Below are positions 28,456 to 32,339 of a stretch of DNA of 64,000 nucleotides, one piece after another. The notes beneath the pieces were generated by a model that worked only from the letters and a program-made list of their open reading frames with translations, was not told the origin of the DNA and ran no database searches. The stretch's first letter is position 1; the number at the start of each line of letters is the position of its first letter. Both the position numbers and the translations under genes were made by a program. Origin of the DNA: Alphaproteobacteria bacterium (lineage in GTDB: Bacteria; Pseudomonadota; Alphaproteobacteria; Micropepsales; Micropepsaceae); NCBI GenBank assembly GCA_947474565.1, contig CANJIS010000011.1, forward strand, positions 1 through 64,000. The letters run 5' to 3'.

Positions 28456-29193
28456 TCATGCTTTTGCGGTCGTGGCGGTGGTGTTCTTCGCCTTGCTGGC
28501 CGCCGCGGGCGTGCGCTCCACCCCTGCCGTGCTGATGGTGCCGGAAACATAAAGCTGGTTGCCGGACACGGTCAGGCCGCCAATGCCGCCGCCGGCCTGC
28601 AACGCGCCCAGATTCTGGGTCCAAAGCGGCGCCGCGGTGATGTCGCCGCCGGCATATTTGGCAATGACCGCTTCGCCATTCTGCGTGCTGGCGACATACA
28701 GGCTGCCGTCGCTGCCGAAGGCTGTGGCGCTGACCTGGTCCGCGCCGGTGGTGCCGAACTGATTTTCGGCGAGAATCTTGCCCTTGTGGTTCAGGGTAAC
28801 AAGATACGCGTCGCTGGTGCCGCCTTGACGAACCTGGCCCGCGCCTACCACACCGCCGGAAACACTGCCGCCGATTGTGATATTGCCGCTTGCGTCGACG
28901 CTGACAGCGTTGGCCTGGTTCGCAGCCAGGGTGGGAATCTGTTTTACACAGCTTTGCGTGCCCTGACTGTCATAGAGCGCGACAAAGGAATCGTTGTTGC
29001 CGGTGCCGATCGACGTCGTCGTCATATTGGCGGTGGACGTGCCGGCGATCGCAACGCCGCCCGCAGGGTCGAGCGCCATGCTGAAGCCGGCGGCCGTGCC
29101 GGCGCTGCCTACCAAATTCTGCCACGCCACATTGCCGGCGGAATCATACTTGGTGAGATAAACCCGAACGTCTCGCCAAACTCGTAAAATAGG
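28456..29193 (-). pseudogene. Headless beta-propeller-repeat protein remnant
   Basis: The frame between the stop of the upstream gene (29194-29196) and 28456 encodes about 240 residues of repeating blades: YLTKYDSAGNVAWQNLVGS, GVAIAGTSTA, FVALYDSQGT, NITIGGSVSG, YLVTLNHKGKILAENQFGT, SLYVASTQNGE and QLYVSGTIST. The blade pattern D-x-Y-L-x-K-Y-D-x-x-G-N is that of SBBP-type repeats, as in some surface and flagellin-regulatory (FlaEY-like) proteins. It begins in mid-blade, with no ribosome binding site or start, so the front is missing. The C-terminal Ala/Thr/Lys tail and stop look natural. Confidence 0.65.
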
Positions 29194-29562
29194 CTAGATC
29201 TCTTCCTCATCGTAAAGAGCGAAGACAAATGGGCGGCCGCGTGATAGTGGCTCCCAACCTGCCTCGATCGCCAGACGGATATCGGCGGCGAGCTTTACGG
29301 GATCAATCTTGGGCCGGTCGGGAAAGCGCGACGGCTTTCGCTGCCGTTTTTCAAAGGCATATTCCAGGATCAATTCGCGGTGCGCCTTGTTTTTGGGCGC
29401 CAGCGGATTTCGGGCCGTGATCACGCCCTCTGCCTCAATCGTCAGGCACAGGCCGACATTGCCGTCATCATTGCGCTTCGGTTCGCTGCGAACTTCCCAC
29501 AGCAGCGTCACGCCATCCACCACCAGCTTGCCGGTGATTGCGCGTTTGCGGCGCTGGGTCAC
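29194..29562 (-). CDS. Conserved protein of unknown function
   Basis: 122 residues starting with GTG 29562, which overlaps the TGA of the upstream chimera (GTGA). The product has a beta-rich N-terminal half (GKLVVDGVTLLWEVRSEPKR, VGLCLTIEAEGV) and a helical, basic C-terminal half (RELILEYAFEKRQRKPSRFP), ending in an acidic DEEEI. I do not recognise a named family. Position right after a transglutaminase-type gene suggests an old operon. Its frame is the same as that of the propeller remnant beyond its stop. Confidence 0.6.
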   Translation of the reverse strand: MTQRRKRAITGKLVVDGVTLLWEVRSEPKRNDDGNVGLCLTIEAEGVITARNPLAPKNKAHRELILEYAFEKRQRKPSRFPDRPKIDPVKLAADIRLAIEAGWEPLSRGRPFVFALYDEEEI

Positions 29563-30452
29563 TGTTGCTGCTGCTGTTGCTGCTGGTACGCATAAATGCG
29601 TTCGGGCATGGACACTGTCGCCGGCGATGCCATGGGACGCGCCACTTTCAGGAAGTCTTCATGCCGCACCGGCGCCTGGGTGGGCTCGATTCCCACTGCG
29701 ATGGAAAGCTCGCTGTCGGAGGTCCCCTTGAAGGTACCGCGCGTCGGCGGCGCATCGGCATAGTCACGGCCGACAGCGGCGCGCACATGCCGCTCCCCGG
29801 CCGGGATATTGTTGGTGGGATCAAAGCCAACCCAGCCCAGGGACGGCAGATAGGCCTCAACCCAGGCATGGGTGGCATCGGCCTGGGAACGGTCCTTGGA
29901 ACCGCGATGATACATGTAGCCCGAGACATAGCGCGCCGGCACGCCCCAGGCACGGGCAATGGCGATCATGGCGCGCGGCACCACGCCGTCTTTCAGCACC
30001 CGGCCATCACTATAAATTTCACGCAGGAAGAGATTGAGCGCCATGATGCGCTGGGTCAGGCCGCGTTCAATCCGCTCCCATTCCGCCGCAGTAACGATGC
30101 GCGGCAGAAGATCGGTGGGAATGATCCGCTCGGTAGCGCGGTTGTCGTTATAGACGGTGAAGGTAATGCCCTGGTGCAGAAAGCTTTGCTCGCAGGCCTG
30201 CTGGCGGCGATTCAGTTCGTCCAACGGCAATGTCGAGATTCGGCTGTTCAGGGATGCATAAGGCCCGCGCACCGTGCCATCGGGCGCGAACATTTCGTCA
30301 TAGGCTGCACCGAGTTGATAAGCCTTATAGGGCGCGTCCTGCCCGGGCCGTGACTGACCGATCGGCCCGGCAACGATATCGGGACCACCAAAATCTTCCG
30401 GATGGACAAGCGCCTCATGCTGCATACGCGAAGTGTGACGGCGGCATGGCAT
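29559..30452 (-). pseudogene. Chimera: circularly permuted ATP-grasp N-terminus fused to transglutaminase-like C-terminus
   Basis: Residues about 45-158 match the start of circularly permuted ATP-grasp proteins (AAYDEMFAPDG, FLHQGITFTVY, ERIIPTDLLPRI, RVLKDGVVP). From about 160 the frame becomes the C-terminal half of a bacterial transglutaminase-like protein (AIARAWGVPARYVSGYMYH, DATHAWVEAYLPSLGWVGFD with catalytic His and Asp). The transglutaminase Cys, which lies before AIARAWG in the family, is missing. In many bacteria the order is ATP-grasp, alpha-E (DUF403), transglutaminase; a deletion from the first to the third gene, with the join at about 29970-29985, gives exactly this ORF. It ends in eight Gln encoded by CAG/CAA repeats. 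Confidence 0.8.
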
Positions 30453-30515: not shown

Positions 30516-31205
30516 TTAATTCAGTGTGTTAAGAAGAGATTCGAGGTTGGGCCGGGGTGCGACATGAACAGCGGCAAAGCGCAGCGGCACCAACGCTTGC
30601 GCCGTGGCCGCACTGATGGCGGCGGCCGCAATGCCATCCAGCTTCAGGTCTTCCTCTCGCATCAAGTCACGGAAAACCGCAGCGCTGCGGGGCGAGAAAA
30701 ACAGCGCCGCATCAACCTCTGCATTGCGAAGCGCCGCCAGGGCCTGAGCCGGCATTTTCTCCACCGCTGTCACGGCATAAAGAATTTCCCGGCGCACGGA
30801 AAAATCGGAAAGGCTTGCCGCCAGTTTCCCGTCATTGCCCTCCCCCGCCACATGCAGCAACGCGCCATTTTCCGGCTTTGCCCAATCGCGTGCGGCGCGC
30901 GCCAGAGTTGCGGCATCGCCATCAGCGTTTTTCACATCGGAAAATCCATGGGCCATGGCCTCGGCCGTAGTCTGGGGGCCCACGGCAAAAATGGGCAGGC
31001 CGCGCTGGCGCGTGCGGCGGGCCAAGGCCCGAACCCCATTGGCGCTGGTGGCCAAAATCGCTTGCACGCCGTCCAGCACAACCTCGGGCCCGTCAAAAAA
31101 TCGTGTCGCAAGCAATGGCGCCAACAACGCCTCATGGCCACGCGCCGCCAGTTCCCGGGCGGTTTCCGCTCCATCTTCCAACGGACGAGTGACCAGTACG
31201 CGCAT
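30516..31205 (-). CDS. hemD: Uroporphyrinogen-III synthase
   Basis: 229 residues in the poorly conserved HemD fold: MRVLVTRPLEDGAETARELA at the start, AILATSANGVRALA, PIFAVGPQTTAEAMAHGF, LLHVAGEGNDGKL and ALFFSPRSAAVFRDL, each a usual family block. It closes and inverts hydroxymethylbilane to uroporphyrinogen III for haem. Start ATG 31205, 60 bases from the divergent tsaD. hemC, which often lies between hemD and tsaD in alphaproteobacteria, is not there. Confidence 0.88.
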   Translation of the reverse strand: MRVLVTRPLEDGAETARELAARGHEALLAPLLATRFFDGPEVVLDGVQAILATSANGVRALARRTRQRGLPIFAVGPQTTAEAMAHGFSDVKNADGDAATLARAARDWAKPENGALLHVAGEGNDGKLAASLSDFSVRREILYAVTAVEKMPAQALAALRNAEVDAALFFSPRSAAVFRDLMREEDLKLDGIAAAAISAATAQALVPLRFAAVHVAPRPNLESLLNTLN

Positions 31206-31265: not shown

Positions 31266-32339
31266 TTGCACACATTCACCGTCCTGGGGATTGAGACCAG
31301 CTGTGATGAAACCGCAGCGGCAGTGGTGCGCGGCGGGCTGCCCGGCCCCGGCGAGATTCTGTCCAACGCCCTGTTCAGCCAGACCGAAGCGCATGCGCCA
31401 TATGGCGGGGTGGTGCCGGAAATCGCCTCCCGCGCCCATTTGGAAATTCTGGATGGAATGATCGAAAAGGCGCTGGCTGACGCCAAAATCCCGTTGGAAA
31501 AGATGGACGCCATTGCTGTTACCGCCGGCCCCGGCCTGATTGGCGGGGTGATGGTGGGGCTTACCACCGCCAAGGCGCTGGCATTGGCCGTCGGAAAACC
31601 GCTGATCGCAGTCAATCATCTGGTTGGGCATGCGCTGACGGCACGGCTGACCGATGGTGTGGCGTTCCCCTTTTTGCTGCTTCTGGTGTCCGGCGGTCAT
31701 TGCCAGTTGCTGGCGGTGGAAGGGCCCGATGCATTCCGCCTTTACGGCACCACCCAGGATGATGCGGCCGGTGAAGCCTATGACAAGGTCGCCAAGCTTT
31801 TGGGGCTGGCTTATCCGGGCGGCCCCAATGTCGAAAAAGCGGCAGAACACGGCAATCCCAAGCGCTATGCCCTGCCCCGCCCACTCCTGGGGCGCAATTC
31901 TTCCGCACTGAAAAACAGCGCAGACTTTTCTTTTTCCGGATTGAAAACCGCCATGCGCCAATTGGTGCTCACAGGCGGCGTGGATGTGAATGATGCTTGC
32001 GCATCATTCCAGGCGGCGGTCATCGATATTCTGCGCGACCGCACGGCCAACGCATTGGCGCTATTTCAGCGCGACTTTCCTGATGTCGAAAATCCCACCC
32101 TGGTGGTGGCCGGCGGTGTCGCCGCCAATATCGCCATCGGTTCGGCTCTCACCCAATTGGCGCTGCGCCATGATTTTCAAATCCGCATTCCCCCGCCCAG
32201 GCTTTGCACGGACAATGCGGTGATGATTGCCTGGGCCGGACTGGAAAAGCTGGCCGGCGGCGCTTCTGATCCGGTCAGCATTGGACCGCGGGCGCGCTGG
32301 CCGTTGGACCCGCGCAGCATGGAAGGAATGCAAAAGTGA
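31266..32339 (+). CDS. tsaD: tRNA threonylcarbamoyladenosine biosynthesis protein TsaD
   Basis: 357 residues of the ASKHA-fold Kae1/TsaD family: [30 protein letters not shown], the metal-binding histidines in [37 protein letters not shown] and the late [10 protein letters not shown] and [12 protein letters not shown]. It transfers threonylcarbamoyl to A37 of ANN-decoding tRNAs with TsaB (58866-59516 here) and TsaE. The start is a TTG at 31266 with GGAAG about eleven bases upstream; no in-frame ATG is close. Overlaps xthA by four bases. Confidence 0.95.

Follow-up and report, generated by a model that had tools for sequence, protein, structure and literature searches.

A probable deletion scar of a lost ATP-grasp/alpha-E/transglutaminase operon in an uncultured water bacterium

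An operon with the gene order ATP-grasp, alpha-E, transglutaminase and Anbu has been described (PMC6376114, where Iyer et al. 2009 is cited for this operon type); phosphate release from ATP was observed with its ATP-grasp protein, and the functional hypotheses proposed for it, which involve protein tagging, remain unconfirmed (PMC6376114). The window analysed here, a stretch of 64,000 nucleotides from an uncultured water bacterium (labelled G000 in our comparison set), carries one open reading frame (ORF) whose two halves are recognisable members of the ATP-grasp and transglutaminase families, and the same gene order and families are found in its congeners. The window differs from the described operon in being without alpha-E and both catalytic cores. 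In its operon relatives, moreover, a 122-aa gene, here called dn, and not Anbu, comes directly after the transglutaminase.

The chimeric reading frame and its junction

The original prediction of an ATP-grasp front and a Cys-less transglutaminase back in one ORF was borne out by Pfam, by PDB sequence matches and by comparison with G009, the nearest intact congener. Positions 29559-30452 of the minus strand form an open ORF of 297 aa with an ATG start and a TGA stop. Met10 (30425), from which the product would have 288 aa, is likely the real start, because all homologues begin MQ(H/Q)EA or nearly so. The front (29970-30425, minus strand; 161 residues of the 297-aa ORF) represents the first ~152 residues of a circularly permuted ATP-grasp gene of 506 aa in G009, with 85% amino acid identity to the latter, and the rear (29562-29969, minus strand) represents roughly the final third of a transglutaminase-like gene, from just past the catalytic Cys, with 88% identity. 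The Pfam profiles CP_ATPgrasp_2 (E 1.1e-15) and CP_ATPgrasp_1 (1.9e-15) match at fusion residues 117-170, through the profile start alone (~54 positions, 1-54 of 374), and Transglut_core (9.1e-13) matches at residues 160-212 with profile positions 59-108, the Cys part being missing. Similarly, fusion residues 50-167 match positions 9-126 of the 474 of PDB 3n6x, a putative glutathionylspermidine synthase with a circularly permuted ATP-grasp, of which the ~350 remaining residues are absent here, and residues 162-247 match positions 188-264 of 3isr, a transglutaminase-like putative cysteine protease whose N-terminal half, including the catalytic Cys, has no counterpart here. The fusion thus holds no full ATP-grasp domain (PF14403/PF04174), its front stopping at residue 154 of 506 in G009 numbering, and it lacks the transglutaminase (PF01841) catalytic Cys of GVCQDFAH, the junction falling just past this motif; the His (DATHAW) and the Asp (FDPTNN) are retained, as in relatives. 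As the transglutaminase has lost its Cys and the ATP-grasp domain its greater part, the sequence shows that neither enzyme can work.

The predicted ancestral order of ATP-grasp, alpha-E and transglutaminase is seen in intact relatives, and a search for the intact three-gene operon found it in G009 and in other congeners, most of those that keep the locus having it. The G009 operon is complete, with little or no spacing between its genes, and lies between the same neighbours as the fusion does: hisF-side genes, a gene labelled tsaD, hemD and then dn. In the window, hemD (uroporphyrinogen-III synthase; 30519-31205, minus strand) is the upstream neighbour, in the same order as in G009. The gene labelled tsaD from its sequence (31266-32339, plus strand) is at the locus in nearly all relatives and served as anchor and tree marker. 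The downstream neighbour is dn (29194-29562, minus strand).

Aligned with the G009 locus, the window shows a single gap (2,570 bp), whose flanks overlap at the 6-bp microhomology CATGAT (29965-29970, minus strand), a repeat present in both G009 donor genes. A single deletion of roughly 3 kb had been proposed, with a join after about 158 residues; the chimera and the single deletion stand, with a size of 2,570 bp relative to G009 instead and the exact join at fusion residues 161/162 (window 29970-29965). The fusion reads GVVPRAMIAIARAW at the junction where G009 reads GVCQDFAHIMIAIARAW, and the transglutaminase motif GVCQDFAHIMI has become GVVPRAMI, with loss of the Cys. ATG-AT(C/T) at CATGAT gives Met-Ile codons in both G009 genes, and comparison with G009 shows that both copies are in the same codon phase, and therefore that the halves were joined in frame. 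One deletion of ~2.57 kb between the CATGAT copies of the ATP-grasp and transglutaminase genes would have occurred in the lineage of G000, so that the ATP-grasp gene lost its back, the transglutaminase gene its front, and alpha-E was removed entirely.

The G000 genome is small (2.18 Mb in 39 contigs; 99.84% complete). No match to alpha-E (PF04168) was found anywhere in it, nor were further ATP-grasp or transglutaminase relatives, or a second copy of either half, detected there. A second version of the operon with ATP-grasp and alpha-E fused, which many congeners carry, is also absent from it. The operon pathway has been lost in G000, since the genome has neither alpha-E nor any other match to the chimera. 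The fusion could also be an assembly or binning artefact, in which contigs from different operon parts or strains were joined, as could happen in a genome in 39 contigs that is probably a metagenome assembly. However, the 6 bp of junction homology are far under assembler overlaps, codon-level divergence from G009 and synonymous divergence from relatives are comparable on both sides of the join, alpha-E is nowhere in G000, and independent assemblies show like collapses with other junctions, all of which makes an assembly join extremely unlikely.

A second gene remnant lies beside the fusion at ~28470-28550 (plus strand), where the start fragment of an MFS-type transporter, HHAFAVVAVVFFALLAAAGVRSTPAVLMVP, is followed by a stop shortly after; this transporter is intact in G044 (L034 3911-5173), and apparently in G015 too. 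A repeat-rich, beta-propeller-like ORF (28456-29190, minus strand; first listed start 29130), which has no Pfam match at cut-off, runs antisense through the transporter remnant with its C-terminal end and is probably truncated.

Other collapsed loci in the genus

Collapsed loci were sought in 69 genomes of the genus, the loci being read individually. Six species, G000 included, have a collapsed locus with six different junctions, four of them in frame and two broken. The in-frame cases besides G000 are G108, with ATP-grasp residues 1-85 joined to transglutaminase residues 204-end (193 aa) and an internal in-frame 21-bp deletion in the front; G044, with residues 1-177 joined to 256-end (254 aa); and G102 (L168 5700-5900), where ~20 residues of the ATP-grasp start and PGRLYHQQQQQQQ make up an in-frame mini-ORF of ~33 aa. 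In the broken G015 locus, ATP-grasp 1-211 and transglutaminase 243-end are in differing frames, with internal stops and no ATG, and in G006 ~33 ATP-grasp residues are followed by the tail out of frame. Both genes are cleanly lost in G057. That four of six collapses are in frame does not depart significantly from chance (P about 0.10, at one third each). The ATP-grasp part that is retained varies (residues 1-154, 1-85, 1-177, or about 20). An identical chimera was found in none of 100 genomes, which included 60 of the genus, and no record in a plasmid collection covered 80% of the query. The search for the same join in sister genomes, which had been proposed as a check, thus returned different junctions of like kind instead of an identical one.

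In a tree of the flanking genes, intact species fall between most of the collapsed ones. G009 is placed beside G000 and G108, G008 beside G044 and G006, G035 and G041 beside G015 and G039, and G106 beside G102. A tree of 31 genes is best with G009 and G108 as sisters, the grouping of G000 with G108 not being rejected (AU P = 0.256). Independent events in G000 and G108 are favoured by this tree, although in principle a fusion common to both might have undergone a second deletion to give the G108 version; at least four of the collapses are independent. Alpha-E is also absent from the collapsed genomes G015, G044, G006, G108 and G102, and from ~25 other congeners. Most collapsed genomes have 1.9-2.5 Mb, G102 having 3.5 Mb, and the flagellar genes that lie downstream in many intact relatives are missing at this locus in most of them.

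Selection, the glutamine tail and possible coupling to dn

In a codon model on the tree, omega (dN/dS) was 0.094 on the G000 branch vs 0.088 elsewhere, with no overall rise; an omega of 0.15 was borderline (2dL 3.3) and 0.2 was rejected (2dL 8.65). The in-frame fusions of G108 (0.116) and G044 (0.057) were unremarkable. Omega was raised in the frame-broken G015 (0.181 vs 0.080, 2dL 7.84), and the codon test is therefore able to detect relaxation. A finer test, scaled by branch length, counted the changes at those sites that do not vary among 13 intact species, and gave 8 observed vs 2.72 expected changes in G000 (P = 0.007, Poisson; P = 0.016, conditional), 5 vs 1.66 in G044, 3 vs 1.31 in G108 and 14 vs 1.62 in G015. 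The excess in G000 equals full neutrality over ~2% of the branch, and the omega limit gives at most ~7%; since omega is not raised, a neutral fusion must date from about the last 7% of the G000 branch. The fusion is either young, or old with partial constraint, both of which fit the two tests. A young fusion is favoured, since those bacterial pseudogenes that last long enough to be observed are generally of recent origin. Given the mild relaxation, the protein that it encodes most likely has no function of its own and is a young relic; the fusion is best regarded as what gene loss has left behind, and is probably no new enzyme.

It could be argued that the fusion protein has been retained, its ATP-grasp N-terminal and transglutaminase C-terminal regions having been selected in several lineages for a non-catalytic role such as partner binding through the poly-Gln tail, given that dN/dS is low in G000, G108 and G044 and not in the broken G015, that the tail is pure in the in-frame loci and eroded in G015 and G006, and that the 21-bp deletion within the G108 front preserved the frame. 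However, invariant sites show an excess of changes in G000 and G044, the parts kept differ widely among species, with just the start and the tail in common, the partner proteins are gone, and the predicted structure is poor (pLDDT 52, pTM 0.25, though from a weak alignment of mostly front rows). We consider such a retained protein, binding through its tail included, rather unlikely.

The tail consists of eight terminal Gln codons, mixed CAG and CAA (29562-29585, minus strand), and is the conserved poly-Gln tail of this transglutaminase family. The operon transglutaminase ends in a run of at least three Gln in 74 of the 77 loci examined (among L081-L160), a count with a possible bias, since one of the six locus-search patterns contained Gln, though front patterns by themselves picked up many of the loci. 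These loci span Alphaproteobacteria, Acidobacteriota, Chloroflexota and others, and the tail is missing from other transglutaminase relatives in the genus, at six loci. All four in-frame collapses keep it as pure Gln, in shortened products of 297 (G000), 193 (G108), 254 (G044) and ~33 aa (G102), and in the broken ones it is altered (QQEQE in G015, QQQKQQQ in G006). A search of one literature library found no paper on this poly-Gln tail. It may act as a substrate or for docking; since transglutaminases classically use glutamine side chains as substrates, the tail bears on what the operon modifies. It is distinctly unlikely, in our opinion, that after operon loss the ATP-grasp start and the Gln tail were selected to remain in frame in several lineages for an enzyme-independent function.

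As had been predicted, the ORF is open and overlaps the next gene, the GTG start of dn overlapping the fusion TGA (GTGA) in the window as in G009. The dn start is directly behind the Gln codons, which contain no evident ribosome-binding site. An overlap or near-overlap is also seen in G108, where the GTG comes immediately after the stop codon, and in G017, G016 and G106; in many congeners dn starts 40-200 nt downstream, so that coupling is not universal. The dn family is present in 38 of the 69 genomes, with invariant W22, E27, REL (62-64) and RGR (108-110), and is kept even after operon loss or with the operon elsewhere in the genome. Searches of Pfam and NCBIfam gave nothing above cut-off for it, and its structure model (pLDDT 74) found no credible fold match in the PDB. 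Ribosomes finishing at the fusion TGA may start dn at the overlapping GTG; frame-breaking deletions would then silence dn, so that the fusion frame would probably stay open. In lineages where dn overlaps or abuts the preceding gene (G000, G108, G102) three of three collapses are in frame, and in those with a spacer (G044, G015, G006) one of three is; this is no more than suggestive of an in-frame bias tied to the dn overlap, being a post hoc comparison of tiny numbers.

Taken further, the fusion ORF could be a mere leader for dn, in which the start, the open frame and the stop position matter and the amino acids do not. The GTGA overlap without an evident ribosome-binding site, the frames of the overlap-type lineages compared with those with a spacer, the G102 mini-ORF that retains just a start and a Gln tail, and the persistence of dn after operon loss would all agree with this. 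Nevertheless, the three of three (P = 1/27) was chosen post hoc, a one-base insertion in G102 (or else an error of sequencing) shifts the dn start so that the overlapping in-frame start is lost, and low dN/dS would not be predicted unless the event is young, and we regard a mere leader as very unlikely.

Probable gene decay and comparison with known systems

Overall, it is quite likely that the fusion ORF is a natural deletion scar of the lost operon. Of the origins first put forward, a natural fossil is best supported, by the synteny with G009, the exact junction and the different junctions in sister genomes. The mechanism is ordinary gene decay, and its repetition within one genus is mildly interesting. 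Since the odd two-family ORF is a product of gene decay, its annotation as an enzyme or a novel domain architecture should be avoided. One genus offers here a small natural series of an intact operon, six different collapses and one clean loss, and short-homology deletions can be compared in it for their age and selective fate. The cross-phylum poly-Gln tail, a side finding, may matter more than the fusion, being relevant to the modification target of a poorly understood operon.

The locus resembles what is generally known of deletion-fusion pseudogenes in shrinking bacterial genomes, with a short-homology deletion, retained neighbours, repeats in sister lineages and mostly smaller genomes, and, as expected of a pseudogene, the intact ancestral arrangement is found at the same place in close relatives (G009 and others). 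It departs from them in that several of the collapses are in frame, keeping the start of the first gene and the Gln tail of the last.
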